32,326 bases of DNA from Desulfurococcales archaeon (lineage in GTDB: Archaea > Thermoproteota > Thermoprotei_A > Sulfolobales > Desulfurococcaceae). Under the pieces are notes generated by a model. The model had not been told where the DNA came from. It worked only from the letters and a program-made list of their open reading frames with translations, and did no database searches. A program made the translations under genes and the position numbers. The stretch's first letter is position 1, and the number at the start of each line of letters is the position of its first letter. This document shows, one piece after another, positions 4,867 through 23,572 of this stretch. The stretch spans positions 1 through 32,326 of the forward strand of contig JAGGXK010000043.1 in the NCBI GenBank assembly GCA_021163115.1, written 5' to 3'.

Positions 4867-6444
4867 TTAAATCATTTTCATGTAGTTTAATACTGTATTT
4901 ATGTATATTGATGTATTTGCTAGGATGTTTGATGCAGGCATAATGATCAATGGTAGTATATAGTCTATTCCTATACCTAGGAGTATGCATGTTATTGCAA
5001 GGAGGTATATTGGTATAGAGGATGGTATGTTTAGTAAACTGTGTCCTATATTGCGATTACTTTCTAATGGCGGTTTAATACATATTGTGTAGAATATACG
5101 AGTATATGCTGTAAAGGATATAATGCTTGGTATGAGCAGTATTAAGGCTAGTGGTATATTATTTGATCCTATTAGAGCCATGTATAGTAAGAACTTGCTC
5201 ATGAAGATATTTAGTGGAGGAATACCTGCTAGTGAAAGCAATGCTATAGCAAATGGTATTCCTATAACTGGGTATCTTCTTCCAAGGCCTTGTAGTGAAG
5301 CAATATTTCTTGAGCCAACTATTTTTATTAATAATCCTGCTGAGAGGAAGAGCAATGCCTTAGAAATAGCATGGTTTACTATATGATAGGTTGAAGCAGC
5401 TAGTCCGAGGCTTGTACCAATACCTAGTCCTACACCAATATATCCTATATTAAGTATTGTACTACATGCAATAAACTTCTTTAGATCACTTTGGATAATC
5501 ATGAGTATAGCCCCTATATAGGCTGATATAAAGCCTAGTATGAGGATAATCTGTGTTGATAACTGGTTGATCCAGCTAACACCATAGATCGTGTATATGA
5601 ATCTAGCTATAGCATATACACCAATTTTTACAACAAGGCCTGACAATAATGCTGATACTGGGGTTGGAGCTGCTGCATGAGCATCTGGGAGCCAGAAATG
5701 GTTAGGGAATAGTGCAGCCTTAAATGTAAAGGCCCAAAGCATTAGTGCTGTAAACAATAATATACCATAGTGTAGGTTACCAAAAACCCCATTAGTTATA
5801 GGGAATTCTATACCCTGTATCTTAGCCGCTAGATCAGCCATGTTAAGCGTACCTGTTGAACCATAGGCAAAAACTATTGCTGTAAAATACATTGTTGTAG
5901 CTAATGCACCATACATTGCATACTTCATAGAAGCCTCTACAGCAACCCTGTCTCCACGATAGTAGGCTACAAGTATGTATGAAGAAATACTTATAACCTC
6001 AAGCATAACAAATAAGTTGAAGAAATCACCCGTATATAGGCAGCCAAGCATACCTGCTTCAACAACTAGTAACAAGGTGTAGAAGAGGTAGAGCCTCCTA
6101 TCACCTGGCATATACCCAATACTATATACTATAACCAAGAACATTATTGATGAAACAACAACACCTAGTAAGCCGCTAAACAAGTCAACAACATAGATTA
6201 TCCCCAGTGGAGGAGGCCATCCACCAAAACTATATACTAAGGGCTTACCCATAGCCCTAACTAGGCCGAGAATTCTCCAAGATAAAGTACATGCCGCACC
6301 GGATACTAGTAGACTATATAGTTCTATCACCCACCTCCTCCTTACAAGATAGTGTATAAGTGGTAGTAGGAAAGCTGAAGCTGTTAAACCAAGCACTATA
6401 AAACCAGGTAAACCCTGATCGATTAGGGACAGGTTCATAACCAC
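4867..6444 (-). CDS. mrpD: Mrp antiporter subunit D-like (MnhD/MbhH-like, ND4/ND5 family)
   Basis: 525 aa, many TM; YTGDFFNLFVMLEVISISSYILVAYY, LFPNHFWLPDAHAAAPTPVSALLSGLVVKIGVYA, typical of proton-translocating antiporter subunits. Confidence 0.9.
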   Translation of the reverse strand: MVMNLSLIDQGLPGFIVLGLTASAFLLPLIHYLVRRRWVIELYSLLVSGAACTLSWRILGLVRAMGKPLVYSFGGWPPPLGIIYVVDLFSGLLGVVVSSIMFLVIVYSIGYMPGDRRLYLFYTLLLVVEAGMLGCLYTGDFFNLFVMLEVISISSYILVAYYRGDRVAVEASMKYAMYGALATTMYFTAIVFAYGSTGTLNMADLAAKIQGIEFPITNGVFGNLHYGILLFTALMLWAFTFKAALFPNHFWLPDAHAAAPTPVSALLSGLVVKIGVYAIARFIYTIYGVSWINQLSTQIILILGFISAYIGAILMIIQSDLKKFIACSTILNIGYIGVGLGIGTSLGLAASTYHIVNHAISKALLFLSAGLLIKIVGSRNIASLQGLGRRYPVIGIPFAIALLSLAGIPPLNIFMSKFLLYMALIGSNNIPLALILLIPSIISFTAYTRIFYTICIKPPLESNRNIGHSLLNIPSSIPIYLLAITCILLGIGIDYILPLIIMPASNILANTSIYINTVLNYMKMI

Positions 6445-6462
6445 CTCAAACCCACCTCCAGA

Positions 6463-7047
6463 TCAATCAAAGATCTTTTCTGCATTTTCTTCAAATTCCC
6501 TAGAGATAATTCTCCTACACTCCTCGGGCTCAACAGCTTTTACATCAATCCAGTGTACAAATAATAACTTAGAATCCCTGTCTACATCAACAGTTACTGT
6601 TCCTGGAGTATTCGTTATAGAATTAGCTATGGTTAATATAGCATAATCTGTTTTAACACCATATGGTATAGCAACAATTCCTGGATTAATGGGCATGTGT
6701 GGACTAATAATCCTCTTTATAACATCAATGTGTGCCCTAGGCTCTATAATAAACATGTATTTAATAAAATATCTAACTAGATAGTAGATCCTCTTTGGAT
6801 CAAGAATCTTCCCTACATCTCTTACAAGAAGATCAGCAACAATAACCGATGTTGCTAGAGAAGCTATAGCTGCTGCTAGTAAATCTATTGCAGTGACACT
6901 TCCAGCTAATAGGATATAGGCTATGAACAGTATAACCGTTAATACAGCTATCTTACTAAGCTTCACTCCCAACACCCCGTCTAACCAATATTTTCCTATG
7001 ATCCAGTGTACCATAGAGCTTATAGAGCTGGATCGAGAGAAATACAA
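6463..7047 (-). CDS. mrpE: Mrp antiporter subunit E-like (MnhE)
   Basis: ILFIAYILLAGSVTAIDLLAAAIASLATSVIVADLLVRDV...IPYGVKTDYAILTIANSITNTPGTVTVDVDRDSKLLFVHWIDV is typical MnhE. The listed start overlaps mrpC by about 90 nt; the real start is probably GTG/TTG in GVLGVKLSKIA near 6967-6980. Confidence 0.9.
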   Translation of the reverse strand: MYFSRSSSISSMVHWIIGKYWLDGVLGVKLSKIAVLTVILFIAYILLAGSVTAIDLLAAAIASLATSVIVADLLVRDVGKILDPKRIYYLVRYFIKYMFIIEPRAHIDVIKRIISPHMPINPGIVAIPYGVKTDYAILTIANSITNTPGTVTVDVDRDSKLLFVHWIDVKAVEPEECRRIISREFEENAEKIFD

Positions 7048-7357
7048 GGAAAGCTACAACAGCAAGATTAATTACTATAGCAGTAATTACTAGGGCTTGT
7101 GGTATGGGATCAACAGCCTCTTTTACAAAACTATTTATTTCACCTCGGCTTGGATTAAGTGTTGGAAGTACTGGTGGTTTAGGATACTCTATAAGCCTGT
7201 ATCCAAGAAATATAATCAAAGTATTGGCTGTATCACCAGCTATTGATAAAGCTATTATCTTTTTAATAATATTTGGTTTAACAACTACACCATAGACAGC
7301 TATAGCAAATATTATGAACAATGATGTATACAGGTATAGTATTAGGTACTCGATCAC
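6956..7357 (-). CDS. mrpC: Mrp antiporter subunit C-like (MnhC, NuoK family)
   Basis: 133 aa; YGVVVKPNIIKKIIALSIAGDTANTLIIFLGYR...VDPIPQALVITAIVINLAVVAFLVFLSIQLYK is typical MnhC. Confidence 0.9.
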   Translation of the reverse strand: MIEYLILYLYTSLFIIFAIAVYGVVVKPNIIKKIIALSIAGDTANTLIIFLGYRLIEYPKPPVLPTLNPSRGEINSFVKEAVDPIPQALVITAIVINLAVVAFLVFLSIQLYKLYGTLDHRKILVRRGVGSEA

Positions 7358-8163
7358 TTCTCACCACCAACATAGATTATTGACAATAATATAAAGATCA
7401 TTAGAAACTCCATTGAGACAACAAAGAACTCGCTGATATTTAGGAACAATAATGTACCACCAATATAGAATACCCAGATCGTGTAGGGGGCTCCAGCAAA
7501 CACTATCCACGGCTTAAACTGGTTCTGAAGAATATATCCTCCAAGCATGTAGGGGGCTAGGGCTATAAGTGCTATTGCAGCTAAGCCAAGGCTTCTAAGT
7601 AGTACTGCCTTATCCAGTCTAAAACCTAGTTCCTCAAGCCTTCTCCACGAATAAGCAGCTATAAGGAGTAGTGGTGCTATAGCAAAAGCTACTCCACCCT
7701 GGAAGCCCCCGCCAGGTGTTATATAGCCTCTAAAAGCTAGTACTAGTGATACAAGTATTACTATTGCAACAACTATCCTAGTTCCTGCCTTAACAATAAT
7801 TGTTAGCCCCGGCTCCTTAGGCCTAAATTTTTTCTCTAAACCAGTTGCTATAGCTAGGCATCCAATTAATGCTGTATAAAGTACTGTTGTCTCATATATA
7901 GTATCTAGTCCACGGTAATCCCATAGTATAGCATTTACTGCCTCAGGGCTTGCAGCCCAAAATGTTTTTGCATAAACATTATACATGTTTTCTAGGTAAA
8001 ACAATGCAAGACTTCTAATAATCCCGCTAGGTGATCCTCCAAATACATTAAATGATACAGCAACAACTATTCCTCCCACAAACAATGTAAGGAGTAGGGT
8101 ATATATTAGAAGCTTCTCCAACCTAACCAGCCTCCTCAAACCTCCTAGTCTTGGATATAGCAT
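7354..8163 (-). CDS. mrpB: Fused MbhE-like (MrpA C-terminal) + MrpB/MnhB-like subunit
   Basis: 269 aa; N-terminal half contains WDYRGLDTIYETTVLYTALIGCLAIATGLE (MbhE/MrpA-C type); C-terminal half contains GTRIVVAIVILVSLVLAFRGYITPGGGFQGGVAFAIAPLLL (MnhB). Confidence 0.85.
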   Translation of the reverse strand: MLYPRLGGLRRLVRLEKLLIYTLLLTLFVGGIVVAVSFNVFGGSPSGIIRSLALFYLENMYNVYAKTFWAASPEAVNAILWDYRGLDTIYETTVLYTALIGCLAIATGLEKKFRPKEPGLTIIVKAGTRIVVAIVILVSLVLAFRGYITPGGGFQGGVAFAIAPLLLIAAYSWRRLEELGFRLDKAVLLRSLGLAAIALIALAPYMLGGYILQNQFKPWIVFAGAPYTIWVFYIGGTLLFLNISEFFVVSMEFLMIFILLSIIYVGGEK

Positions 8164-8380
8164 AGAGTATTATGATGGGGTAGATCCCAATACCTACAGC
8201 TAGATAGGCAAACAATATATCAGGTGCCATAAGAACTCCATAGGCTATAGCATATGCTATTGACTGGGCAGCAGAATATACTACAGCCTTCACTAGATCC
8301 TTTTCTGAAACAGCCTTATAGGTAAACACTATTGCTATTGTAAACAGGTATGTAAGTAATAGTATAGAATACCAGATCAC
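8123..8380 (-). CDS. DUF4040/MbhD-like subunit (MrpA-derived)
   Basis: 85 aa; FTYKAVSEKDLVKAVVYSAAQSIAYAIAYGVLMAPDILFAYLAVGIGIYPIIILYAI; sits between MrpG and MrpB as in Mbh clusters. Confidence 0.8.
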   Translation of the reverse strand: MIWYSILLLTYLFTIAIVFTYKAVSEKDLVKAVVYSAAQSIAYAIAYGVLMAPDILFAYLAVGIGIYPIIILYAISKTRRFEEAG

Positions 8381-8760
8381 TTCTCTCCACCCCTATGTTT
8401 CTCAAGCATATCGATAACCTTAGGCTCAACCTTTACAACACGTCCCCTATGACTTGCATAAGCTAGTGCATGAGTACCAATTGGTGCAACAATCATTGTT
8501 ACAAATGCTGTTAGAAAGAATATGGTTGCCACTGCAAACCTATATACACCAAGCTGGCTTGAACACAGGCTCATAAGCCCTACTCCTATGAGAGGGACTA
8601 CAGCACCACCAATAATACCTACTGTAGCAGCATGTAGTCTTACATAGAAGTTGGGGAATCTAAGCAGGCCTAATGAACCAAATAGATCACATAGTGCACC
8701 AAGAGTTGTTAACCCGAGGCCTATATAGAATATAATCCATTCAACAACCTCAAACACCAT
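8377..8760 (-). CDS. mrpG: Mrp antiporter subunit G-like (MnhG)
   Basis: FGSLGLLRFPNFYVRLHAATVGIIGGAVVPLIGVGL and MIVAPIGTHALAYAS are MnhG hallmarks. Confidence 0.92.
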   Translation of the reverse strand: MVFEVVEWIIFYIGLGLTTLGALCDLFGSLGLLRFPNFYVRLHAATVGIIGGAVVPLIGVGLMSLCSSQLGVYRFAVATIFFLTAFVTMIVAPIGTHALAYASHRGRVVKVEPKVIDMLEKHRGGEK

Positions 8761-8762
8761 GA

Positions 8763-9065
8763 TCAGCCCCCGAGCTCCTTCTTAACAAGATACTTTGCTA
8801 TAAATAAGTCAAATAGGAAAGCCCATAATGCAAGCAATAATGCACCCAGGGCGAGAAACGGTGTCTTATAGAGGAGGGATAACAAGCCAATGAATACCGC
8901 TAGATCAAAGGATAGACAGTCAACAGCCAAGACCATATCAGGTACTGTTGGGCCTTTAAGCATTCTAATAATATATAAAGTGAATGAGGTTACAAAGACT
9001 ATGGTTACTAATGGAACATATAGTGCTAGCACACCAGAGGTATCAATCAACAATCTCCACCCCAA
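8763..9065 (-). CDS. mrpF: Mrp antiporter subunit F-like (MnhF)
   Basis: IIRMLKGPTVPDMVLAVDCLSFDLAVFIGLLSLLYKTPFLALGALLLALWAFLFDLFIAKYL is typical MnhF. Confidence 0.9.
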   Translation of the reverse strand: MGWRLLIDTSGVLALYVPLVTIVFVTSFTLYIIRMLKGPTVPDMVLAVDCLSFDLAVFIGLLSLLYKTPFLALGALLLALWAFLFDLFIAKYLVKKELGG

Positions 9066-9633
9066 TAGCTTTCTCTAAAACAGCCTCCTCCCCGGCCAAC
9101 ATCTTCTTAAGCTTACTAAGCATCTCTGTTGACAACTCCTCAACATATACTGATCTATATTGTTTTTGTTCAACAAAGCCCCTGGCAAGCAATACAGCAT
9201 AGAGTATAGCTTCAGGCTTAGGTGGGCAACCTGGTACATATATTGTTGGAGGAGGCTCCACTCCATACCTTCTCTTCATATACTTATAGAACTCGTTAAT
9301 TCCCCCAAGGACAGAGTATGAGTCATACCATATACCTCCTCCACAGGAACAAGAACCTATAGCGATTACAAGCTTTGGATTAGGGACAGCGTTAAATGCT
9401 CTTACAACTCTTGGAAGAGCCTCCATGGTGACAGGGCCTGTAAACACAATTGCATCAGCGTGTCTTGGGGATCCAACAAGCTTTACACCAAACCTCTCAG
9501 CATCAGGTCTAGGAGCAAATATGTTTAAAACCTCTATATCACATCCATTACAGCTACCACTATTTAGGTGGAAAACCCAGAGGCTCCTCCTATACAGCTT
9601 TAGTAGATCAACCTCCATACTACCACCTCGCAT
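9043..9633 (-). CDS. Group 4 [NiFe] hydrogenase small subunit (HycG/HyfI/MbhJ-like, NuoB family)
   Basis: SGSCNGCDIEVL, VFTGPVTMEALP, IGSCSCGGGIW, YVPGCPPKPEAIL: Cys ligands of the proximal [4Fe-4S] cluster are present. Confidence 0.93.
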   Translation of the reverse strand: MRGGSMEVDLLKLYRRSLWVFHLNSGSCNGCDIEVLNIFAPRPDAERFGVKLVGSPRHADAIVFTGPVTMEALPRVVRAFNAVPNPKLVIAIGSCSCGGGIWYDSYSVLGGINEFYKYMKRRYGVEPPPTIYVPGCPPKPEAILYAVLLARGFVEQKQYRSVYVEELSTEMLSKLKKMLAGEEAVLEKAIGVEIVD

Positions 9634-10126
9634 AAGAAACCTTCTTTGAAGAATGTTTCTCCCTACAATCAGGACATAGTAGTAAATGGCTTCTTTGTTC
9701 CCTAGGTAGATTACTTGCTACATGCTCTACCAGACGAATTGTAGTATATGGTCTACCACATACCATGCACTTAGCCATGACTAGTGCTACTTCCTGGTAT
9801 AGATCATTATGATTTATTGAAGCAAGCTCAAACTCCCTAGTAAGCTTTATAGCTTCTACAGGGCATACATCCTGGCATCTTCCACAAAATATGCATCTAC
9901 CAAGAAATAGTTTGATTACTCTAACACCCCTATCAAGATCATCTGTCATGGATAGAGCATTTGGTGGACAAGCATTAACACATGCTCCACAGCCAAGGCA
10001 TTTATCTTGATCAATAACGGGCTTGCCCCTAAATCCTTCAGGAACCTCTATAGGCTTGTATGGATACTTCTCTGTAACAATACCTACACTAATCGATCTA
10101 CGTAGTAATCCAAGCCTCTCTCTCAA
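9620..10126 (-). CDS. 2x[4Fe-4S] ferredoxin hydrogenase subunit (HycF/HyfH-like)
   Basis: [20 protein letters not shown] and [18 protein letters not shown], plus C-terminal CMVCGRP...LCPDCREK motif. Confidence 0.9.
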
Positions 10127-11781
10127 CCTAGTCCCCTCCTAGAAAGCTCTCTCAGCCCAACTTGCTTCCTAGAACCAGTTCTTACATCAATAATTAGTAC
10201 ATGATCTGTGCATGAGAAACAGGGGTCTATACTAGCTATAATTATTGGTGCATCAGCCAAGTGTTGATCCTTAAGCATTACAAGGAGTGCAGGTATATTG
10301 TTATAGGATGGTGCACGAGGCCTCCACCTATAGATCTTGTTATCTCTACTAGTTATAACAAAATGTATATCCTCCCCACGTGGAGCCTCAGTTACCCCAA
10401 CCCCTATCCTATGCTCTGGTACATGGATTTCCTCAGCCATTATAGGGGTTCTAGGTAGGTTATCAAGCAATTGTTCAATAATATTTATTGACTCAATAAT
10501 TTCCTCGTGCCTAACAAGGATTCTTGAAAGTACATCCCCATCCTTATAAACAGGTATCTTAAAATCAACATGCCTATAGGCTGCATAGGGATGGTATTTA
10601 CGTACATCAGTATCTATTCCAGAGGCTCTAGCCGTAGGCCCTAATACACTATACTTCCTTGCCTCACCATAATCTAGTACCCCAACACCTCTTGTCCTAT
10701 AGATTATCTCCTTTAATCCCAGGATCTTCTCCATATAGTCAACATAATCCTTTCTAAGATCACGTAGAACCTTCTTCACCTTCAATGCCTTAGATAAATC
10801 AATATCCCTCCTCACACCACCAATAAGGTTTAATCCATAGGTCTTCCTATTACCAGTAAGCATTTCCGCCAAATCCATTACTTTTTCTCTAAGCCTCCAT
10901 GTAATCATAAAACCTGTATCAAATCCTAGGAAGTGGAAAGCTATTCCAAGCCATAGCATATGGCTATGGATACGCTCTATCTCAAGCATTATTGATCTAA
11001 TATAATGTGCTCTCTCTGGGACATCTATTCCAGCAACATTTTCAACTGCTTGACAATATGCAACATTATGTGTATAGCCGCAGATACCGCAGATCCTTTC
11101 AGCCAGGAATGGTATCTGGTTAATAGTCATTCTCGACTCTGCAATCTTCTCCATACCTCTATGAACCATGAAACCCTTATACCTTGCACCAACAATCCTC
11201 TCTCCATCAACATATAGCTCGAAATACTCTGGCTCATGTAATGCTGGATGGTAGGGGCCAATAGGTATAATAGTATACTTCCCAGCAAACCTACTATCAT
11301 GTTCAGGCTCGTCACTAGCCTCCTCAATATACACCTTCTTATTATAAGGATAATCCTTTCTAAGAGGATACACTCCCTTAGGCCAGTTATATGGTAGTAT
11401 AAGTCGTTTAGGCTCAGGATGATCATCAAACATTATTCCAAAATAATCCATAACCTCTCTCTCATGCCAGTTAGCTCCAGGTATTATAGGGGTTATAGAT
11501 GGTACATGGAGGTAGCCAGGGCTAACCCTTATATCAACTACTACATAAACACCCAGGTGATCCAGGGAGAATACATGGTATACATGAAAGCTATTATCTA
11601 GAGGCCTCTCATCACTACCTATTGATACAGAGAAGTAGCCACCAATTCCCCAGTGAAGGTATTTAGCTATATCTCTTAGCTTACTCCTATCAACATGTAC
11701 GATTAGGGTGTGGCTATCAATCCATTCAACTATACCAAACCTGCCTAGCTCCTCCACAAGCTTAGTAGCCGAGGACTGCAA
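10123..11781 (-). CDS. Group 4 [NiFe] hydrogenase large subunit, NuoC-like + NuoD-like fusion (HycE/HyfG-like)
   Basis: 552 aa; N-terminal NuoC-like domain ([32 protein letters not shown]), L1 motif [17 protein letters not shown]2 motif DPCFSCTDH followed by a C-terminal tail [25 protein letters not shown]. Confidence 0.93.
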
Positions 11782-12652
11782 GTACTAGAACCACCCCTGT
11801 AGCCAGTGATAGTTTCTTCATAAAGGATAATGCATACTCTATCCTATGCCTACCTGAAAAACACTCTATTGTAGAAAACAGTATTGAGAAAACAATAACT
11901 CCTACTATATAGTATATGGGTGAGAAAACAGTATATCTTGGTATAACTAGGTTGAGAAGTATTGATGTATACAGGAGCCTCTTTAATAAGAGGGAGTATA
12001 TTGCAAAACCGAGATCCCTTCCAGTATACTCTATTATAACTCCTCCAGCTATCTCAGGCTCTGCTTCAGGTATGTCAAAGGGTAGTCTAAAGCCTTCAAT
12101 ATATACAAGTATGGCGAACACTATTAACCCAAGTATACTTGATAGCCTATATGGCGGGATTATGGGGAATAGGCTTGTTATAAGGAAGCTCTTATTTACA
12201 GCAACGAAAATAGCTAAAGTAATACCAGTTAATAGTTTCCCAGCCATGGATAGAGAGATCTCCCTAGTGGAGCCGGTAATGGCGAATGGGTTTCCTGTGG
12301 AAATGCTTCCCATAGCAAGTATTATAGATGATGCTGTAATAAGGTAGTATACAACAATTATGTCTCCAATAAAGCTTAGAGAGTAATCTAGAAGCGTTGG
12401 AATGAATAAGAAGGCTATAACCATGTTTGTAAAGAACATGTAGGGCGCTATCCTATATAATAGACCCGGATTACCTGTTAAACCACCTGGTTTTCTTAGA
12501 AGCTTTACTATATCATATAGTGTTTGAGGTATAGGAGGTCCTCTACGGTTCTGGAGCCAAGCCTTTATCTTTCTCTCTAAACCATCAAGTAGGGGGGCTG
12601 CTAGAAGTATAAACCCTATATTAGCTAGTGCCCCAATGAATACCCAGATCAC
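11762..12652 (-). CDS. Hydrogenase membrane subunit (HycD/HyfC/CooK-like, ND1 family)
   Basis: [36 protein letters not shown] and [31 protein letters not shown]. Confidence 0.92.
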
Positions 12653-12655
12653 TAG

Positions 12656-14602
12656 CTACCACCCTACAGCCCAAATGATTAAGAGTACCACTACTAGAGT
12701 TAGTACAATCATTGCCACAGGATCCTCTATGATCCTTTGAAGCTTCTTGAAGAACTTAAGAGAATAGTTTATAGAAGTTACACCAAGGACTTCATGAACC
12801 GCCTTACCCACAGTATATGCTTCACTAAAGACCTCCTTAAAGCCCCTGAAATATGATCTGCCTGGATAGTGGAGAAGCCCTTCTTTAACAAGTGTTCCAC
12901 AACTCCATATACCATAGCTTGTATACCTAGGCCTTGCAATAAGTATGTAAAGTATTGGCAGAATAATTGCTAGGATAAAGCCTATGAATAATGGAGAATT
13001 GACACCTATGTTATTCACTTCTATAAATCCTATTCCAAAACTAATATACTGGTACTGGATAATGTTTAATCCAAGAAGACTTATAGCTGATGTAATAAGC
13101 TTCAGGGGTATAACAACCACTATGCCGAACAATATACATAATGCTGCAAGCATTACCTGGGCTAGAGACATAGGGAAAGGTACTTCCTCTAACTTCTTAT
13201 ATGATCCCGGTTCAAAGGGGCTTCTAGTAAATATTGTTGTAAAATACTTTACAAAACTAGCTGCTGTAACAGAGCTTATAAATAACGCAAATAATCCATA
13301 AAATGCTAAGTATCCCCCTGCGCAAAACGTTGATATATAGATGATCCACTTACTTACAAATCCATTAAAAGGGGGGATCCCGGCAATAGATAATGATGCG
13401 ATAAGGGCTGTAAGAGCTGTTAAGGGCATGTATTTTGCAAGCCCGCTTAGCTTATTCAGATCTCTTAACCCTGTTCTATATACAACTGATCCTGCTGTGA
13501 GGAATAATAGTGATTTAAATAATGCATGATTTATGAGATGATACATAGAGCCTAGTAGGGCTATAAACGCTAGGGGATAGTTCCCCATAGCATAAAGTGT
13601 TCCTGAGGCTCCTAAACCTAAGACAACATAACCGATCTGGCCAATACTATGGTATGCAAGAAGCCTCTTAGAATCAATCTGTACTAACGCATATAGCGTT
13701 CCCGTAAATAATGTTACTACACCAAAGCTTGATATAATAACTCCCCAGTAGATCGTTGGTTGGGAGAACTGATAGAAGAGCCTATACATCATATAAATAG
13801 GCATCTTAATCATTACACCACTAAGTAGTGCAGATACATTACTTGGTGCCTCAGGGTGGGCATCGGGTAGCCAGTTATGGAATGGAACTAGCGCAGCCTT
13901 TATACCAAGCCCCATAAATAATAGCATGAGCACAGCATTTGCTATTACTGGTGTTCTTAAAAATAATTCTCTAAACCTAGATGCTACAACCTCGTAATCT
14001 ACATTATAGCCGCTATAAATGATCATGAGAACTAGTCCCGCAATAATAATCATTTCAGCCCCAAGCTTTGATACACAAAAGTATTTATAGCCAGCCCATA
14101 GAGCCTGTTTCTTATTCTTCTCATAGGATACAAGAAACTGGGATGAAAGAGTCATGAGTTCCCAGAATATAATGAATATGAACAGGTTATAGGTTGTAAG
14201 AACACCATACATTGATATAATGAATAATAAGTAGTTTACACCATACCATCCAATATGTTCTCTTCCATAAAATCTACCTATATAGCCTATACCATAGATA
14301 GATGATGCAAGGGATACGATTCCAAGAACTAGTGTAAAAAATGCCGATAGGCTATCTAGTCTAAAATGAATTACCTTAAAGGATAAAATAGGGTAGCTAT
14401 AGTCAAGACATATCTTATACGTGAAGTCAAGAGTGCTTCCACTAGCTAGTACATAGAGTGAGAGAATGATAATTATAATGCTAACTGTAATGGATACTCC
14501 GTGAACTATATAGTTAGATGTTTTCCCACGAAACAAAGCTATTATGGGGAGGAATATTAGGGAGGAAGGTATTAGGAGGTAAAAAATAGTATTTAGATCC
14601 AT
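12656..14602 (-). CDS. Hydrogenase large membrane antiporter-like subunit (HycC/HyfB-like, ND5 family)
   Basis: 648 aa polytopic; FFTLVLGIVSLASSIYGIGYIG, LLFMGLGIKAALVPFHNWLPDAHPEAPSNVSALLSGVMIKMPIYMMYR. Confidence 0.92.
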   Translation of the reverse strand: MDLNTIFYLLIPSSLIFLPIIALFRGKTSNYIVHGVSITVSIIIIILSLYVLASGSTLDFTYKICLDYSYPILSFKVIHFRLDSLSAFFTLVLGIVSLASSIYGIGYIGRFYGREHIGWYGVNYLLFIISMYGVLTTYNLFIFIIFWELMTLSSQFLVSYEKNKKQALWAGYKYFCVSKLGAEMIIIAGLVLMIIYSGYNVDYEVVASRFRELFLRTPVIANAVLMLLFMGLGIKAALVPFHNWLPDAHPEAPSNVSALLSGVMIKMPIYMMYRLFYQFSQPTIYWGVIISSFGVVTLFTGTLYALVQIDSKRLLAYHSIGQIGYVVLGLGASGTLYAMGNYPLAFIALLGSMYHLINHALFKSLLFLTAGSVVYRTGLRDLNKLSGLAKYMPLTALTALIASLSIAGIPPFNGFVSKWIIYISTFCAGGYLAFYGLFALFISSVTAASFVKYFTTIFTRSPFEPGSYKKLEEVPFPMSLAQVMLAALCILFGIVVVIPLKLITSAISLLGLNIIQYQYISFGIGFIEVNNIGVNSPLFIGFILAIILPILYILIARPRYTSYGIWSCGTLVKEGLLHYPGRSYFRGFKEVFSEAYTVGKAVHEVLGVTSINYSLKFFKKLQRIIEDPVAMIVLTLVVVLLIIWAVGW

Positions 14603-14821: not shown

Positions 14822-15616
14822 CTACCTAAGGATCTTCATGATCTTTTTATAGAGTGAAAAAACATCACGGTATAGAATACTATCCTCTGGGAGGCTATCA
14901 ACGCCTCTACCCATGGCCTCGATCTTTAATAGTTTTTCATCATACCTGACTATATGATATGGTGTAGAGTTTTCTCCAAATACTCTAGAATATTGTTGTA
15001 CAGCACCTATCTCATCTACAACCTTGTTTAAGACAATAATGTTGCGTTTAATCCCTAGTTCATCAGCTAGTTTAACAAGCTTCCTTGATATAATCAGAGA
15101 TTTTATTGTAGGCTCTGATACACAGAGGTTTAGATCAAACTTTTCTGCAAGACCTCTACCAAAGACCTCTGCACCAGCCTCTGCATCAACGATAACGATT
15201 TCCCTCCTCTTAATAAAGACGTGGGCTAAGAATGCCTTGGCAAGTGCTATTGCTGGGCACAGACACCCTTCCTTACTTACATCAATGCTTCCAACAACTA
15301 CTAGGGCTAGGTTATTATTTATTCTAATACCATACTTATCCACTAGATCATCTACTCGTGGTGTTAGGGAAAACAGTATTCCCCATCCCTCTCCAGGCCT
15401 AGCACCTGTTCTTTCCTCAGCAAGCTCATCATTCTTAGCTAGTGGTGTTATAGAATATGCTTTCTCAAGGGGTAGGCCAAGGCTTTGGGCAAGGTTTGGG
15501 ACAGAATCAGTATCTAGAGCTAGTACTTTGTAGTTGTTTTTAGAAAAAATTATTGATAGTAATGCAGCTATAGTTGTCTTTCCTACACCACCTTTTCCAG
15601 ACACTAGTATCCTCAA
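14822..15616 (-). CDS. cooC: CODH nickel-insertion accessory ATPase CooC
   Basis: MRILVSGKGGVGKTTIAALLS deviant Walker A, CxC motif in KEGCLCPAIALAKAF, VIVDAEAGAEVFGRGL. Confidence 0.93.
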   Translation of the reverse strand: MRILVSGKGGVGKTTIAALLSIIFSKNNYKVLALDTDSVPNLAQSLGLPLEKAYSITPLAKNDELAEERTGARPGEGWGILFSLTPRVDDLVDKYGIRINNNLALVVVGSIDVSKEGCLCPAIALAKAFLAHVFIKRREIVIVDAEAGAEVFGRGLAEKFDLNLCVSEPTIKSLIISRKLVKLADELGIKRNIIVLNKVVDEIGAVQQYSRVFGENSTPYHIVRYDEKLLKIEAMGRGVDSLPEDSILYRDVFSLYKKIMKILR

Positions 15617-15671: not shown

Positions 15672-17582
15672 TTATAGGGGCCATCCAAGCTTCCTTCTCT
15701 TCTCCATGATTACATTGATTATTGTTTCTGCAGCTTTCTCTGGATCTGGTTCTACATAGAATTTCCCACCAATAGCATCTTCTATATCCTCTGTCAACAG
15801 CTTGGTTACCTTAGGGCTCCCTAGTACCGGCGGTATTGTTCCTAGATGGGTGAATACACCTGATGCTAAGAAGTATGTTCCAATACTCGTTGCTTTCTCG
15901 CTCATCCATTCTGGTGCTGAGCCAGCTGCTGGTAGGTCGGATATGTCTACATCAAGTGATTCTGCAAGAGCTTTTAATGCAATAAGTATTCTTGAACAGT
16001 CTACACAGCTACCCATGTGTAGACATGGTGGTATGCCTAGTGCTTCACATATCTTCCTAAGCCCTGGGCCTGCAAGCTTTGCTGCCTCCGGCGATAATAG
16101 TCCATGTATACCTGCTGCTATTGCCCAGCACCCAGTTCCTACTACTAGGATATCTTTTTCAATAAGCTTCTTGGTTAGGGTTACGTGGCTGTAGTTGTGT
16201 TTTACCTTCGGGTTTACACAGCCTACTATGCCTACTATACCCTTTATTGTACCATCTCGTAGTGCATTTATTAGTGGGTCAAGGCTTCCTCCAAGAGCCT
16301 CTAGTATTGCTTCAACACTAAAGCCGGCCATGATCTCCATTTTATGTTTTGGTATATATACTCTAGCCTTGCTCCTGTTTGGATAGTTCTCTATAGCTAT
16401 TCTAACTATCTTTTTGGCAATCTCATCAGCATGCTCTGGCTCAAACTCTATATGGGTTGCCCCGGGTATTTTCATCTTAGGCTCTGTAGTAATTACCTTT
16501 GTATGGTAACAGCTTGCTACATCAACCAATGCAGGCATTACACACTGGTAGTCAACAATTATTGCCTCTACAGCCCCTGTTATTATTGCGAGCTCCTGCA
16601 TCAACATATTTCCTGCAATAGGTACTCCAAGCCTCATTAATACCTCGTTTCCTGTACAACACATTCCAGCAACATTAACTCCCTTAGCACCATATTCCTC
16701 GGCAAGCTTCTGCATTTCATCACTCATAGCTGCCTCCACGATCTTCATTGATAGTACTGGGTTGTGTCCATGAACTATGATGTTCACCATATCCTCCTTT
16801 AATACGCCAAGATTCATGGTTGTCTTAAGAGGCTTTGGTGTACCAAACAGTATATCGCTTAAAAGGGTGGCCATCATTGAGCCGCTCCATCCATCTGCAA
16901 GAGACGTTCTTACACCATGTAGTAGCAGGCTAACTGGGTCAGCGTCAACACCTATGTGGGTGCGGTGCATACATTCACAGATCTCTCTATCAATATTCCT
17001 TGGTACAACACCTAGTTTAGCCCATACACGCATCCTCTTAGCTGGTACAAGTGCTTTAACTAGTGCTAGAGGCTCCTCATCCTGTTTACCAAACTCTCTC
17101 TCAAGAATCTCTATAACATCCTTTGCAATCTCCTCCTCACTCCTATCCTCAACAGGTACTCCAAGAGCGGATGCAAGCCATTTAAGCTTCTCCTGATCAG
17201 TTATCTTATAGGCCTTGGTCTTGCCCTCTGCAACAAGTCTTACAACCTTTACAATATCCCTTGCATGATCGCTGTGGGCAGCTGCCCCAGCAGCAATCAT
17301 TCTAAGAAGGTTTCTAGCAACAATAGTATCTGCTGTAGCTCCACAAACACCTCTAGTAGGCCCATAGCCTGTTGGATCAATACGGCAGGGCCCCATGTTA
17401 CAGTTCCTACAACATATACCAAGTAACCCGAATCCACACTGTGGCTGTTGTTCTAGGTAGCGGTGCCAAGCAGTTTTAATACCCTCTTCCTCAGCCTTAT
17501 CAAGAAGCTCTGATACACCAGGTGTTATTGATACCTGCTTAGTGGGTAACCTGTATTTCAGGTATTCCCATCTAGAGGACAA
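15672..17582 (-). CDS. cooS: Ni-containing anaerobic CO dehydrogenase catalytic subunit CooS
   Basis: 636 aa; CGFGLLGICCRNCNMGPCRIDP (B/D cluster Cys), HGHNPVLS, VNVAGMCCTGNEVL, VDYQC, GIVGCVNPK, VVGTGCWA, HMGSCVDCSR: cluster C ligands appear complete. Confidence 0.96.
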   Translation of the reverse strand: MSSRWEYLKYRLPTKQVSITPGVSELLDKAEEEGIKTAWHRYLEQQPQCGFGLLGICCRNCNMGPCRIDPTGYGPTRGVCGATADTIVARNLLRMIAAGAAAHSDHARDIVKVVRLVAEGKTKAYKITDQEKLKWLASALGVPVEDRSEEEIAKDVIEILEREFGKQDEEPLALVKALVPAKRMRVWAKLGVVPRNIDREICECMHRTHIGVDADPVSLLLHGVRTSLADGWSGSMMATLLSDILFGTPKPLKTTMNLGVLKEDMVNIIVHGHNPVLSMKIVEAAMSDEMQKLAEEYGAKGVNVAGMCCTGNEVLMRLGVPIAGNMLMQELAIITGAVEAIIVDYQCVMPALVDVASCYHTKVITTEPKMKIPGATHIEFEPEHADEIAKKIVRIAIENYPNRSKARVYIPKHKMEIMAGFSVEAILEALGGSLDPLINALRDGTIKGIVGIVGCVNPKVKHNYSHVTLTKKLIEKDILVVGTGCWAIAAGIHGLLSPEAAKLAGPGLRKICEALGIPPCLHMGSCVDCSRILIALKALAESLDVDISDLPAAGSAPEWMSEKATSIGTYFLASGVFTHLGTIPPVLGSPKVTKLLTEDIEDAIGGKFYVEPDPEKAAETIINVIMEKRRKLGWPL

Positions 17583-17589
17583 GAATAGA

Positions 17590-18243
17590 TCACCTCCAGG
17601 ATACAGGGGAGTACATGGATTTTAATTGAGAGACAGAGGGTGTAGGAGGCTTTGGCTTAGGAAGCTCTACAGGCTTCATATAGACTATTCCTGGCACAGG
17701 CATTCCTGTAATCATTTCCTTAGCCTTCTCCTCAGCAACCATTGCCAGGAGATCCTCTAGCCTACCATACTTTAATGCACCAGTTGGACATGCTTCTACA
17801 CAAGCTGGCAGCCTCCCCTCTCTAATCCTGTCTATACAGAAATCACACTTTACAATAGTCTTTGTATCCGGGTTGTATCTTGGGTGGCCGAAGGGGCATG
17901 CTAGCGTACACATTAAGCAACCAATACACTTTCCTGGATCAAGAATTACAAAACCCTCAGGACTTCTGTAAAGAGCCTTTGTTGGACATACATTCATACA
18001 TGGTGCATCCTTACAGTGCTGGCACCTCATGGGAACATATAGTAGGTTATCAACAGTTACAACCCTAATCCTTGGATGAGGCCTTGGTTTCTCAAGAACA
18101 AGGCTAAATATACTCTTACCCATTGAATGCTCTATGGCACAAGCTAGCTCGCATGAACGGCATCCAGTACATTTAACGGGATCAATAAATATTACTTTCT
18201 CATCAATAACCCTAACTGGCTCTGCAATGGCCGTAGAAATCAC
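17590..18243 (-). CDS. cooF: CooF-like polyferredoxin electron-transfer subunit
   Basis: Four Cys-rich cluster motifs: CTGCRSCELAC, CQHCKDAPCMNVCPT, CIGCLMCTLACPFGHP, KCDFCIDRIREGRLPACVEACPTGAL; adjacent to cooS. Confidence 0.93.
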   Translation of the reverse strand: MISTAIAEPVRVIDEKVIFIDPVKCTGCRSCELACAIEHSMGKSIFSLVLEKPRPHPRIRVVTVDNLLYVPMRCQHCKDAPCMNVCPTKALYRSPEGFVILDPGKCIGCLMCTLACPFGHPRYNPDTKTIVKCDFCIDRIREGRLPACVEACPTGALKYGRLEDLLAMVAEEKAKEMITGMPVPGIVYMKPVELPKPKPPTPSVSQLKSMYSPVSWR

Positions 18244-18286
18244 CCCAAGAAATAATTCAAGAGATTATTAGTTATAATAAGGCCTC

Positions 18287-18306
18287 GTATTCGAGAAATG
18301 GAATAC
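18287..18306. promoter_or_regulatory. Candidate operator upstream of cooF (inverted repeat GTATTC-N8-GAATAC)
   Basis: Perfect 6-bp arms with 8-nt spacer, just upstream (relative to cooF) of a TATA-like TTATTATAA (complement of 18272-18281). Confidence 0.5.
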
Positions 18307-18331
18307 CTTCCAAGATACCGTATTCGCATCA

Positions 18332-19477
18332 CTACCGCGATAACTTGAACTCTAGTGACTCGTTTTTAAGAAGTGCTTCAAATACTATATCCCTATACCT
18401 TCTATATTTTTTAAGTATCTTCTCTCCTTCTTCACTAAGTACTGTAAATCCTCGGTCTGCTCCACCACGTCTAGTAATAAGCAGTTTTACACCAAGCTCT
18501 TTTTCAAGACTACGGATCCTCTCTAGATATGTTGATGGGGGGTATCCTAGGAGTTTACATGCCATTGTAAACGATTTTACCTGAGATATAACTTCCAGCA
18601 ACAATAATATATCCTGGGATATGGTTTTTCCATTAGGTGTTGATAGGGAGATCTCTATTCTTGGTACAAGCTCTGTGCTTGAGCAGATTATTGGGCAATG
18701 ACTATACATTATTTTCCTAATAGTATTGATAGTGATTTCCTCTTCTCCTACGTTAACATATTCTCTGCTTAAGGGGCATTTCCATAGTCTTCCAAAGGGG
18801 TCAATATATATCTTCCTACAAATAGGGTCCCTAGGCTTAGATAATGCTGTTACAGCATATTTTCCTACAAACACTATTGATGCCCTATATCCATAGAGAT
18901 AGCCGTAGGAGAGACCTGTTTCAAACCCTCTCTTCTGAAAAATTCTTGCCGGATCAATATACTTGTTTGTTGAATACAGATATTCACCAATTCTTACCCT
19001 AAGTCCATACTCCTTCACAGTCTTTATTATTGATAGAGAGTTCTCTACATCAGTTTCTCTCCCTGTAAAAGGTATGTATATGGCTAGTCTATCATAGCCA
19101 TTGCTTATTAGGGATCTAATATAGTACTCATTTAATGTAAAATCCTTTTTTGTAGGAGTAATTAGTGCTAACTCATCAATGTATTCTAGGATATTCTTAT
19201 CAATATCATCTAGGGTATTTATTGGTGCAAAGACATAGAGCCTCCTAGTATAGAGCTTGATCCTCTTAATCACATACTCTATCTTAGGATGATTAAATGG
19301 GTGTGGACATAGTATGGTTGTTTCATCAAATCTATAGTCTCCAAGGACTCCAAGAATCTTATCTAGTATATTTATTGAGAGGACTTCTATAGAGCTATAT
19401 AGAGTTCCGAAGGGGCATCCAATACAGCCTCCTCTACAGCCACTTACTGGCCTTACTAGTAAAGTAGACCAGCCCAA
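18332..19477 (-). CDS. corR: Radical SAM domain fused to ModE/LysR-like winged HTH; CorR-like candidate CO-responsive regulator
   Basis: N-terminal CRGGCIGC (CX3CX2C), Cys-rich segment CRKIYIDPFGRLWKC...CPIIC; C-terminal LLLLEVISQVKSFTMACKLLGYPPSTYLERIRSLEKELGVKLLITRRGGADRGFTVLSEEGEKILKKYR is ModE/LysR-like. Confidence 0.75.
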   Translation of the reverse strand: MGWSTLLVRPVSGCRGGCIGCPFGTLYSSIEVLSINILDKILGVLGDYRFDETTILCPHPFNHPKIEYVIKRIKLYTRRLYVFAPINTLDDIDKNILEYIDELALITPTKKDFTLNEYYIRSLISNGYDRLAIYIPFTGRETDVENSLSIIKTVKEYGLRVRIGEYLYSTNKYIDPARIFQKRGFETGLSYGYLYGYRASIVFVGKYAVTALSKPRDPICRKIYIDPFGRLWKCPLSREYVNVGEEEITINTIRKIMYSHCPIICSSTELVPRIEISLSTPNGKTISQDILLLLEVISQVKSFTMACKLLGYPPSTYLERIRSLEKELGVKLLITRRGGADRGFTVLSEEGEKILKKYRRYRDIVFEALLKNESLEFKLSR

Positions 19478-19498
19478 TCTGGATCAATGCCTCTTGTT

Positions 19499-20143
19499 TT
19501 ATTCAAAGTATGTTTCAAAGCCGCAGAAAGAATATCCTAGACCCCAGCAATATTTCTCCCTGGTAGTATTCTTCCCTATAAGTTGCTCCAACACCCCCTC
19601 TATAACACCTGCTTCAAAATCACACATTGGTATACCTACAGCCTCCATCCCTGAACAACTCATACATTCATAAATGTTTATCCTCATCCTATTGGTTGAC
19701 TCATTTTCTAGATCAAGCAATCCTATTCTTTGTGCAATAAAGACGTGTGGTAGATCATCTATAGATCTTATAATACTTTTTTCAACAAGCATTCTTCCAA
19801 GATTATATCCTGAAGCCTTCATTACAACAGCTTTTAGTGCTGGACTATACCTCATCATGTCGTAGACTATCGTTCTGTAGGTTCTAATATATATTGGGTC
19901 ATTTCTATCAAGTCCTACGAAGAAGGGTCTCCTAGTACTTGTTAAATAGGATTTCTTAAGCCTACATCTATGGGGGATTCTTTTCTCACCTATTACTCTA
20001 TTATTCTCTTCCTCTAGAGCTATTCTCCTCCAGTTCCTTATAGCTCTATAAGCATTTGCATAATGCTCTCTAGCCTCCTTTAATACAACCGGATCAATGT
20101 TTTCCAGAAACAATTTCTTCAAAGACAACTCTAGGTAACCCAT
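19499..20143 (-). CDS. corQ: V4R (4-vinyl reductase) domain protein; CorQ-like candidate sensor
   Basis: C-terminus YECMSCSGMEAVGIPMCDFEAGVIEGVLEQLIGKNTTREKYCWGLGYSFCGFETYFE fits the V4R domain; adjacent to the HTH protein and cooFS. Confidence 0.75.
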   Translation of the reverse strand: MGYLELSLKKLFLENIDPVVLKEAREHYANAYRAIRNWRRIALEEENNRVIGEKRIPHRCRLKKSYLTSTRRPFFVGLDRNDPIYIRTYRTIVYDMMRYSPALKAVVMKASGYNLGRMLVEKSIIRSIDDLPHVFIAQRIGLLDLENESTNRMRINIYECMSCSGMEAVGIPMCDFEAGVIEGVLEQLIGKNTTREKYCWGLGYSFCGFETYFE

Positions 20144-20147
20144 ATAA

Positions 20148-20173
20148 CTTATCTAGATAATATGCTAGATAAG
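20148..20173. promoter_or_regulatory. Perfect inverted repeat upstream of corQ (CTTATCTAG-N8-CTAGATAAG)
   Basis: 9-bp perfect arms, 8-nt spacer ATAATATG, 5 nt from the corQ start codon. Confidence 0.55.
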
Positions 20174-20293: not shown

Positions 20294-21046
20294 TTGGGCT
20301 CTATACTAGGCTATTTTGTAGCTACAGTTAAAAATCTTCGTGGCGTAGTCTTAGTTGATTCTTCTGACAAAAATGCTGTTGAAAAGATTAGCTGGCTTAT
20401 AAAGAGGTTTAGATATAGAAACCTTGGCATACCCCCCTCACTATATTCTAAAGGGGATCTTAAGAAGTATTTCTCTAAAGGCCCCTTTATAGAACTAGTA
20501 TATCCTATCAATAGTATTAGATCCTTTGTTGAGAAGCTATGGAATATAACAGGTTATCCTCTAGAACTTATTGAATCACTTGTTTTATCATCAACATATG
20601 TATCACCATTACTTATTGCTGGATCAGAGTATATCAGGTTGCTTGAAAATATAGCCTACACGTCTATACAGGTTTGTAGGGAGCTAAGCAATAATGAGTG
20701 GAAACTTCACTTAAGGATAGCAGACTACACTATACTAGATATGTACAGAGAAAACATTGGTGAAGCAGTAGATGTTATAAAATATTTAAAAGGAAATAAA
20801 TGGAGGTCTATCAAAGAAGTTCTTGATAATAGGAGGAAGAGGGTTGAGAAAGACACTAAGAGGTACTGGAGAATAGTGTGTAAGAATAAAGAGGGTCCTC
20901 TAAAGAAGTTCCTACTATATATAGATCTACTGAATTTGCTTGTAGAGTTATTTAGGAGAGGATTGTTTAAACTAGAGGATCTTAGAGATGATTATAGTAT
21001 AGCCTTATCAATAGTTCCAGCTGTAAATATAAATTTGATGATATAG
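20294..21046 (+). CDS. Hypothetical protein, 250 aa, divergent from corQ
   Basis: Uninterrupted ORF with plausible TTG start; mostly helical, basic; no family recognised. Confidence 0.6.
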   Translation: MGSILGYFVATVKNLRGVVLVDSSDKNAVEKISWLIKRFRYRNLGIPPSLYSKGDLKKYFSKGPFIELVYPINSIRSFVEKLWNITGYPLELIESLVLSSTYVSPLLIAGSEYIRLLENIAYTSIQVCRELSNNEWKLHLRIADYTILDMYRENIGEAVDVIKYLKGNKWRSIKEVLDNRRKRVEKDTKRYWRIVCKNKEGPLKKFLLYIDLLNLLVELFRRGLFKLEDLRDDYSIALSIVPAVNINLMI

Positions 21047-21120: not shown

Positions 21121-21537
21121 ATGGGGTTGATATTGGTTAAAAGAACAAAGTTTGGGGTATATGTTCCAGAGGATCTACTATCTGATCTTAATGAGTGTAT
21201 GAAAGCTATTGGTATAAAGAGTAAATCCAAGCTTATCCAAGAAGCTCTCCGCTTATTTATTACTGAGCATAGATGGAGAACTGCAGGAGAAGCTGTTGGA
21301 ATTATAGGTGTTGTATATGATCATGAGAAGGGCCATGTTGATGAAGAACTAACTGATATACAGCACCAATACCTTGATATAATAATTGCTACACTTCATA
21401 TACATCTCGATGAAAAGAGATGTATGCTTGCCATAGTTGTTAGAGGGGATACTGAGAGGCTTAAAAGCCTGCTTGGCGACATACATAGGATCAAGGGGAT
21501 CATGATAGCCCGACCGCTCTTACTGGATATAAAGTAG
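21121..21537 (+). CDS. nikR: Nickel-responsive regulator NikR (RHH/CopG + NikR C-terminal domain)
   Basis: VKRTKFGVYVPEDLLSDLNECMKAIGIKSKSKLIQEALRLFI RHH; IGVVYDHEKGHVDEELTDIQHQYLDIIIATLHIHLDEKRCMLAIVVRG with His/His/Cys Ni-site pattern. Confidence 0.92.
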   Translation: MGLILVKRTKFGVYVPEDLLSDLNECMKAIGIKSKSKLIQEALRLFITEHRWRTAGEAVGIIGVVYDHEKGHVDEELTDIQHQYLDIIIATLHIHLDEKRCMLAIVVRGDTERLKSLLGDIHRIKGIMIARPLLLDIK

Positions 21538-22105: not shown

Positions 22106-23572
22106 TCATAGCTTTTTCTTTGTTCTTAGAATTGATACTACTATAAACACTATTAGCCCGAGTAGTAGAGCTGGTGGTGCTGCTATGTATATTGAGTCCC
22201 ATATAGCCCACTCTAGTTCCTCTTCTACTGCTAGGGTCTGGGGTAGAGTATACAGTATTAGAGCTATCCATGACACTATACTTACCGCTATACCTGCTAA
22301 TGCTCCTTCTCTGGCTGCTTTCTTCCAGTATATTCCTGGGATAAATGGTATGCCCTGCACCATTAGTATTAGCTCCCAGCTTAGGTTCATTAGGAAGTAG
22401 ATGGTCTTTGTATATAGTGCAATATATAGGCTCACTAGCGTAAATACTGGGACAAGGATCTTTGCTAGCAGTAGCCTTGTCTTCTCACCTACATCCCTCT
22501 TGATCATTGGAAGCAGGTTCTTTACAACTATTGTTGAAGGTATAAGCATTGCACTATCAGCACTACTCATCAGGGCTGCAAGCAGTCCTATAGTGAATAC
22601 TATGAATGGTATGGTTGGCAACAACTCCTTACCTAGTAGTGGTAGGATCGAATCCGGGTTATCTATCTCGGGTATAATTATTCTTCCAAGAATCCCTGTG
22701 GTTGCTGGTATAAGCCCTAGTAATATATAGGTTAAGCCTGCTGCTAGTGAAGCATTTCTTGCCACACCCTCGTTTCTAGCTGATAACGCTCTCTGAACAA
22801 GATCCTGGCACGAGAGGCTGCCGATACCTTGGACAAGCCATGATGATATATAGAATGCAGCCCCTATTAAACCAAAGTATCCTAGATAACCCCATCCAGG
22901 CTGAGGCAGTATTGAGAAATCATCCATAGATACCATATCTGATGCTAGCACTGCATCAAACCCTCCTGCAGCATTGATTACTGCTGGGAACAGTATCAGT
23001 ATACCTATTATCAATAATATTGTCTGGATGAAGTCTGTATAGGCTACACTCCACATACTACCAAGCATCGTATATACTATGGTGACCGCTACTCCAAGCA
23101 ATAATCCCTGTTCATAGGGTATTCCAAGGAATACATTGAATATATAGCCAAAGGATACTAGTAGGCTACCCATCCACCCCATATACGCTATAACCTGGAT
23201 AATAGTTGATAACGCCTCCATCTCTCTCCCATACCTGTCTCTAAAGAAATCTGATATGGTCATATACCCCATTTTCCTCAAGGTTTTTGCAAAGAATAAT
23301 CCAAACAACAGTATACATACACCAGCACCAATAGGATCCATTATTACGCCACGGTATCCATAGAGATATGCCATTGATGCACCTCCAATAGCTAGCCCCG
23401 TGCCAAACCATGTAGCAAGTATTGTACCATAGGTTAGTGGGAACCCCAGTCTCCTCCCTGCAACAATGTAGTCTGCAAGCCCCTTGATCTTCTTTGATGC
23501 AATATATCCTATGACTAGGGTTGAAGCCATATAGACCATGGTTGCGGCTAGGGCTAGGGAAACCTTATCCAT
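22106..23572 (-). CDS. Sodium:solute symporter family (SSS) transporter
   Basis: 488 aa; ADYIVAGRRLGFPLTYGTILATWFGTGLAIGGASMAYLYG, SADSAMLIPSTIVVKNLL, typical SSS. Confidence 0.88.
   Translation of the reverse strand: MDKVSLALAATMVYMASTLVIGYIASKKIKGLADYIVAGRRLGFPLTYGTILATWFGTGLAIGGASMAYLYGYRGVIMDPIGAGVCILLFGLFFAKTLRKMGYMTISDFFRDRYGREMEALSTIIQVIAYMGWMGSLLVSFGYIFNVFLGIPYEQGLLLGVAVTIVYTMLGSMWSVAYTDFIQTILLIIGILILFPAVINAAGGFDAVLASDMVSMDDFSILPQPGWGYLGYFGLIGAAFYISSWLVQGIGSLSCQDLVQRALSARNEGVARNASLAAGLTYILLGLIPATTGILGRIIIPEIDNPDSILPLLGKELLPTIPFIVFTIGLLAALMSSADSAMLIPSTIVVKNLLPMIKRDVGEKTRLLLAKILVPVFTLVSLYIALYTKTIYFLMNLSWELILMVQGIPFIPGIYWKKAAREGALAGIAVSIVSWIALILYTLPQTLAVEEELEWAIWDSIYIAAPPALLLGLIVFIVVSILRTKKKL

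Follow-up and report, generated by a model that had tools for sequence, protein, structure and literature searches.

A V4R protein and a radical-SAM-type/winged-helix fusion protein as a candidate CorQR-type switch for CO respiration in Desulfurococcales archaea

Introduction

The window analysed here, a 32,326-nucleotide stretch of DNA from a heat-loving Desulfurococcales archaeon, carries genes for CO respiration that are preceded by two regulator-like genes, and it raises the question of what these two genes sense and control. Among the regulators of CO metabolism that sense CO, the best known, CooA and RcoM, rely on haem. In Thermococcus onnurineus NA1 the cluster encoding carbon monoxide dehydrogenase (CODH), hydrogenase and Mrp subunits is reported to be activated by CorQR (PMC4791640), which consists of a V4R protein and a protein with a LysR-type DNA-binding domain (PMC6557876; this source gives the V4R domain to CorR, the opposite of the naming used here). 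We consider it somewhat probable that the two genes in the window encode a switch of the CorQR type that governs hydrogenogenic respiration of CO, in which a non-catalytic Fe-S protein would act as sensor and activator.

Results and Discussion

Operon context

The V4R and fusion genes head a cooF-cooS-cooC-hydrogenase-Mrp operon (Table 1), the genes of which encode a CO-to-hydrogen respiratory complex, and the start codon of the fusion gene lies 21 bp past the V4R stop codon. Divergent from the V4R gene is a gene whose 250-aa product belongs to no known family (window 20294-21046, +); it is followed by a NikR-type nickel regulator (21121-21537, +); nickel is a requirement of both CODH and hydrogenase. 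Further away, 23565-23960 (-) encodes the last third of histidinol dehydrogenase and is probably a truncated gene, because only profile positions 294-411 are covered. No RNA elements or tRNAs were found in the window.

Table 1. Features of the regulator-CODH locus (window positions).
Feature	Position	Strand	Basis or remark
CorQ-like V4R gene, 214 aa	19499..20143	-	PF02830, alignments A2 and A5, fold matches
Palindrome CTTATCTAG-N8-CTAGATAAG, just upstream of V4R start	20148..20173		sequence
CorR-like radical-SAM-type/winged-HTH fusion gene, 381 aa, TTG start	18332..19477	-	ORF, Pfam/profile matches, alignments, AF2
Radical-SAM-type partial barrel, about residues 1-213	18839..19477	-	AF2 and Foldseek to SuiB, QueE, SpeY
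CX3CX2C motif, CRGGCIGC, residues 14-21	19415..19438	-	sequence
Cys57, invariant, directly past predicted strand 2, at the GGE place	19307..19309	-	11/11 sequences and G195 paralogue
Twitch-like region C220-X8-G-X4-C234 ... C261	18695..18820	-	kept in 10/11 sequences
ModE/LysR-type winged HTH, residues 288-372	18362..18616	-	profile matches and AF2/Foldseek
Putative operator GAATACG-N11-GGTATTC-N8-GAATACG	18286..18325	-	between fusion gene and cooF; shuffle tests, assembly scan
TATA-like element TTATTATAA of cooF promoter	18272..18280	-	sequence
cooF-type ferredoxin	17590..18243	-	profile matches
cooS, anaerobic Ni-CODH catalytic subunit	15672..17582	-	TIGR01702, 770 bits vs cut-off 478
cooC-type P-loop ATPase	14822..15616	-	CbiA/ArsA-type P-loop matches and operon position
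Group-4-type membrane hydrogenase and Mrp antiporter subunits	4867..14602	-	profile matches

Architecture and distribution of the fusion protein

A preliminary description of this locus had placed a V4R-domain protein next to a protein joining a radical-SAM-type N-terminus, with its CRGGCIGC motif and a downstream Cys-rich region, to a ModE/LysR-like winged HTH, and our analysis recovered both reading frames and each of these parts. In the HTH, PF00126 matched residues 292-352 above its cut-off (31.8 against 26.6 bits), while the ModE domain TIGR00637 stayed below its own (E=4e-8; 33.2 against 98.5 bits). The radical SAM family PF04055 likewise fell below cut-off on the N-terminus (E=0.0013; 19.4 against 29.5 bits). 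The AF2 model (mean pLDDT 82) contained both a partial barrel and a winged HTH, and the top PDB matches returned by Foldseek were SuiB, QueE and SpeY, with viperin, EpeE, BlsE and SkfB ranked lower, as were ModE and the LysR protein TsaR at the C-terminus. The radical SAM signal is thus weak by sequence and, in the predicted model, strong by fold.

Full-length homologues, 23-45% identical to the window protein, occur in eight genera from six families: they were found in Desulfurococcales-type MAGs (36-45%), and a profile search added members of three more distant families of the same phylum (23-29%). All those examined lay directly upstream of cooF-cooS with the exception of one paralogue in genome G195. 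The architecture is not a chance join, because at full length it recurs across these eight genera and this range of divergence, always in front of cooF-cooS. The fusion gene was missing upstream of cooS genes of other clades that are 32-59% identical to the window cooS, among those with upstream sequence, and from the CooS clades of families f14 and f16 (~36% identity). A further two cases, in G338 and G347, are uninformative because they end at or near a contig edge. Genome G016 contains a second CODH (L150:7926-10477, -; 43% identical), which has its own cooF-type, hydrogenase and antiporter genes and is without the fusion regulator. Plasmid and viral collections yielded no relative, and renewed sampling around G103 added no member.

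Pairwise identities of CorR and CooS were correlated (r=0.93 for seven lineages, i.e. 21 non-independent pairs), which is consistent with joint inheritance of the two genes. The regulator diverges much faster than the enzyme, with 44% identity between the window and G420 proteins where CooS retains 85%.

The V4R partner

The V4R assignment was well above cut-off (PF02830, E=9e-13; 48.5 against 31 bits), and the low-confidence model of the protein (pLDDT 64) matched the Bet3/PoxR/H-NOX fold group. Haem binding as in H-NOX is not favoured, since alignments A2 and A5 contain no invariant His. Both contain five invariant cysteines (C160, C163, C174, C199 and C207), and the 25/8 spacing of C174/C199/C207 is nearly equal to the 26/8 spacing of the three conserved cysteines of MsvR, which have been mutated to test their part in redox-dependent DNA binding (PMC3729527). 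This match, the relation of the V4R fold to the PoxR and H-NOX sensors and the published CorQR texts that call the V4R protein the CO sensor (PMC6557876) speak for a reading in which the V4R protein perceives CO and the radical-SAM-type half, whether or not it holds a cluster, serves only for dimerisation or the docking of a partner. We regard this as rather unlikely, given the distribution of the two genes and the conservation of the fusion protein. The V4R gene adjoins the fusion gene in Desulfurococcales-type loci, G420 and G252 but is absent from the fusion locus in G103, G271 and G307 (three genomes, two families); no V4R match was found in the G103 genome (85% completeness), and those V4R proteins that G271 and G307 do encode match the CorQ profile weakly at best. 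In the fusion protein, Cys57 and Cys21 never vary, although identity to the window sequence is only 23-45%.

The three lineages without V4R at the locus share a conserved small ORF (88-92 aa; MRFKAILCYV...) that is upstream of the fusion gene and divergent from it (L053 ~5818-6084; L054 ~7976-8254; L055 ~2575-2853) and is possibly a replacement partner. Two further observations concern V4R copy number: G252 encodes a second CorQ-like protein away from its CODH cluster (L157:3013-3579, -; 188 aa, E=8e-40), and the 1.6-Mb genome of G420 has thirteen V4R matches, an unusual expansion. The palindrome upstream of the V4R gene in the window was not seen in the upstream sequences of other loci.

A formate-linked paralogue

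The exceptional paralogue of G195 (L156:886-2472, -; 528 aa) has the CX3CX2C motif, a Cys57 equivalent and the HTH, followed by a C-terminal extension of no known family. Next to it lie the gene of a formate transporter and a formate dehydrogenase/hydrogenase cluster with genes for a molybdopterin oxidoreductase, a ferredoxin and subunits of hydrogenase and antiporter; no cooS match was found in this genome. The fusion family is therefore not limited to CO, and redox sensing remains a serious rival to CO sensing: the domain could respond to low redox potential or to general Fe-S status, with CO and formate respiration both signalling through the reduced electron-carrier pool. We nevertheless think this explanation unlikely, as the ligand of the paralogue could have changed and most lineages of the CO family have retained V4R.

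The putative cooF operator

Immediately ahead of the TATA box of cooF lies a putative operator with two sites that are separated by 33-34 bp; for direct half-sites, 33 bp was the best spacing (34 in L022). The same layout was present in L022, L035, L036 and L051; in the window, as in each of these, none of 2000 dinucleotide shuffles was as good, and a consensus made from L035 alone, and so from one genus, found the window, L022 and L051 promoters at 3-5 mismatches in 21 positions (0/3000 shuffles each); the motifs were first spotted by eye in these promoters, for which the hold-out and shuffle tests correct in part. In the 1.38-Mb assembly the window operator was the sole match at <=3 mismatches. 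In six loci the TATA-like element is similarly placed with respect to the proximal half-site. The L023 and L024 promoters have the proximal half-site only, and no operator was found at V4R-gene promoters.

Other dyad sequences also occur. The L052 promoter has a single dyad (CCGAGT-N13-ACTCGG) of the same geometry, which, like the lone half-sites of L023 and L024, speaks against the model proposed below. In L053, L054 and L055 the fusion protein has a diverged HTH without the Gly-Gly wing region, and each promoter has a pair of TGGAAW-N6-WTTCCA dyads with a spacing of exactly 33 bp; 0, 0 and 1 of 2000 shuffles by first-order Markov resampling, respectively, contained as good a pair at any spacing, L054 and L055 belonging to one genus and being counted once. 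That operator sequence and HTH change together while the spacing stays constant is our best evidence that the fusion protein binds the cooF promoter, an interaction that we regard as putative. It also bears on the alternative that the operator belongs to another factor, for example a repressor of the Tfx type. TON_1525 is one such repressor; it binds the CODH promoter of Thermococcus and shows that a second regulator acts there in T. onnurineus (PMC4791640). As the operator shifts where the fusion HTH shifts, keeps its spacing and is unique in the assembly, we find this alternative very unlikely.

Enzyme or sensor

In the radical SAM enzyme SkfB, the amino and carboxyl groups of SAM are bound and oriented by the GGE motif (PMC6231123). 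This motif was missing past strand 2 in all 11 aligned members of the fusion family, and in its place (past predicted strand 2, residues 50-56) all 11 have Cys57, as Cys-Pro in ten and Cys-Ser in one. Judged from motif position, Cys57 may lie close to the unique iron. The CX3CX2C motif is kept in most lineages, the exceptions being CX3HX2C in genus g17 and loss of the first Cys in G103. Further downstream, C220-X8-G229-X4-C234 is one residue short of the twitch pattern CX9-15GX4C and is followed by C261. The triad C220/C234/C261 was kept in 10/11 sequences, and its loss as a set in G252 suggests that the three cysteines serve one cofactor. With cluster cysteines varying in g17, G103 and G252, no single cluster arrangement suits all members.

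Because no homologue has GGE and conservation of the cluster cysteines is incomplete, SAM chemistry in the N-terminal half appears unlikely, and the enzymatic domain of the preliminary description is not supported. We favour an Fe-S ligand or redox sensor over an active enzyme, on the replacement of GGE around the invariant Cys57 and the loss of CX3CX2C or auxiliary cysteines in some lineages; the sensing half has probably lost its chemistry and retained its Fe-S sites. An active radical SAM enzyme that modifies the V4R partner or a small ligand in step with transcription is highly improbable, for although CX3CX2C is kept in most lineages and the closest folds are SPASM/twitch enzymes, no member has GGE, two lineages have a broken CX3CX2C and PF04055 stays below cut-off.

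Proposed mechanism

In the sensor-activator model that we prefer, the fusion protein would bind as two dimers to the two sites in front of the cooF TATA box and would thereby activate the operon. The radical-SAM/twitch fold that makes up the N-terminal half of the protein would serve for sensing instead of catalysis and would hold one or two Fe-S clusters, and with Cys57 where GGE would hold SAM, the normally SAM-binding iron may be capped by this residue or open to a small ligand. Binding of CO or reduction at that iron would then alter the DNA-bound form of the protein, and the V4R protein may relay or gate the signal, a dependence limited to part of the family as V4R is missing at the locus in three genomes. 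In this scheme we infer binding as dimers or a tetramer, activation, cluster presence, the ligand and the V4R role. The preliminary view of the pair as the CO switch is supported in part, by its place at the head of the CODH-hydrogenase operon, by its CorQR domain composition and by the phased cooF operator, and CO sensing by the pair is the part that we infer.

Comparison with known regulators

By domain composition and gene setting, the pair appears to function like Thermococcus CorQR: in the window, as in T. onnurineus NA1, a V4R gene is paired with a gene for a LysR-type DNA-binding domain next to a CODH-hydrogenase-Mrp cluster. The abstract of the 2015 CorQR study by Kim et al. reportedly mentions homologues in Thermococcus species and Candidatus Korarchaeum. 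The open-access descriptions of CorQR that we found mention no radical-SAM-type N-terminus of CorR, and the contrast may be one of description only.

With the twitch/SPASM enzymes BtrN, SpeY, BlsE, SkfB and SuiB the fusion protein shares the predicted partial barrel and CX3CX2C, and its next part, where Cys-X8-Gly-X4-Cys precedes one more Cys, resembles their hairpin region; unlike them, it has GGE replaced around an invariant Cys, an incompletely conserved Cys set and a C-terminal winged HTH. This winged HTH is shared with ModE and LysR regulators. The likeness to the latter extends to a 25-bp dyad, GAACAC-N13-GTGTTC, and to the two-site promoter layout, a feature of LysR regulators, but the HTH of the fusion protein is C-terminal, opposite to its placement in a classical LysR protein, and there is no Pfam match to the substrate-binding domain or, unlike in ModE, to the molybdate-binding domain. 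MsvR of methanogens has a V4R domain with the same three cysteines as the V4R protein; it combines V4R and HTH in one chain, whereas here they are in two proteins, and the match to NF053755 (49.6 bits against a cut-off of 220) covered the V4R part only (profile positions 108-235 of 236). CooA and RcoM likewise regulate CODH genes but are haem sensors, and Pfam found no such domain in the V4R or fusion protein. In a limited full-text literature search, judged on titles and abstracts, we recognised no description of a radical SAM-HTH regulator.

Significance

What is new here is the two-site cooF operator, the exchange of its half-site at a kept 33-bp spacing and the formate-linked paralogue. 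We tentatively entertain the wider idea, somewhat less likely than not, of an archaeal transcription factor family in which a radical-SAM/twitch fold became a non-catalytic Fe-S sensor by replacement of GGE with an invariant Cys; its members would respond to CO where they control CODH operons, and to formate or redox state where the operon is of the formate-hydrogenlyase type, through operators phased by three helical turns. The Fe-S domain, the candidate residue Cys57, the operator and the formate paralogue together make haem-free CO sensing by archaeal CorQR testable and suggest a route by which an enzyme fold may turn into a gene switch, and the operator could be used to predict CO-induced genes in these uncultured archaea.
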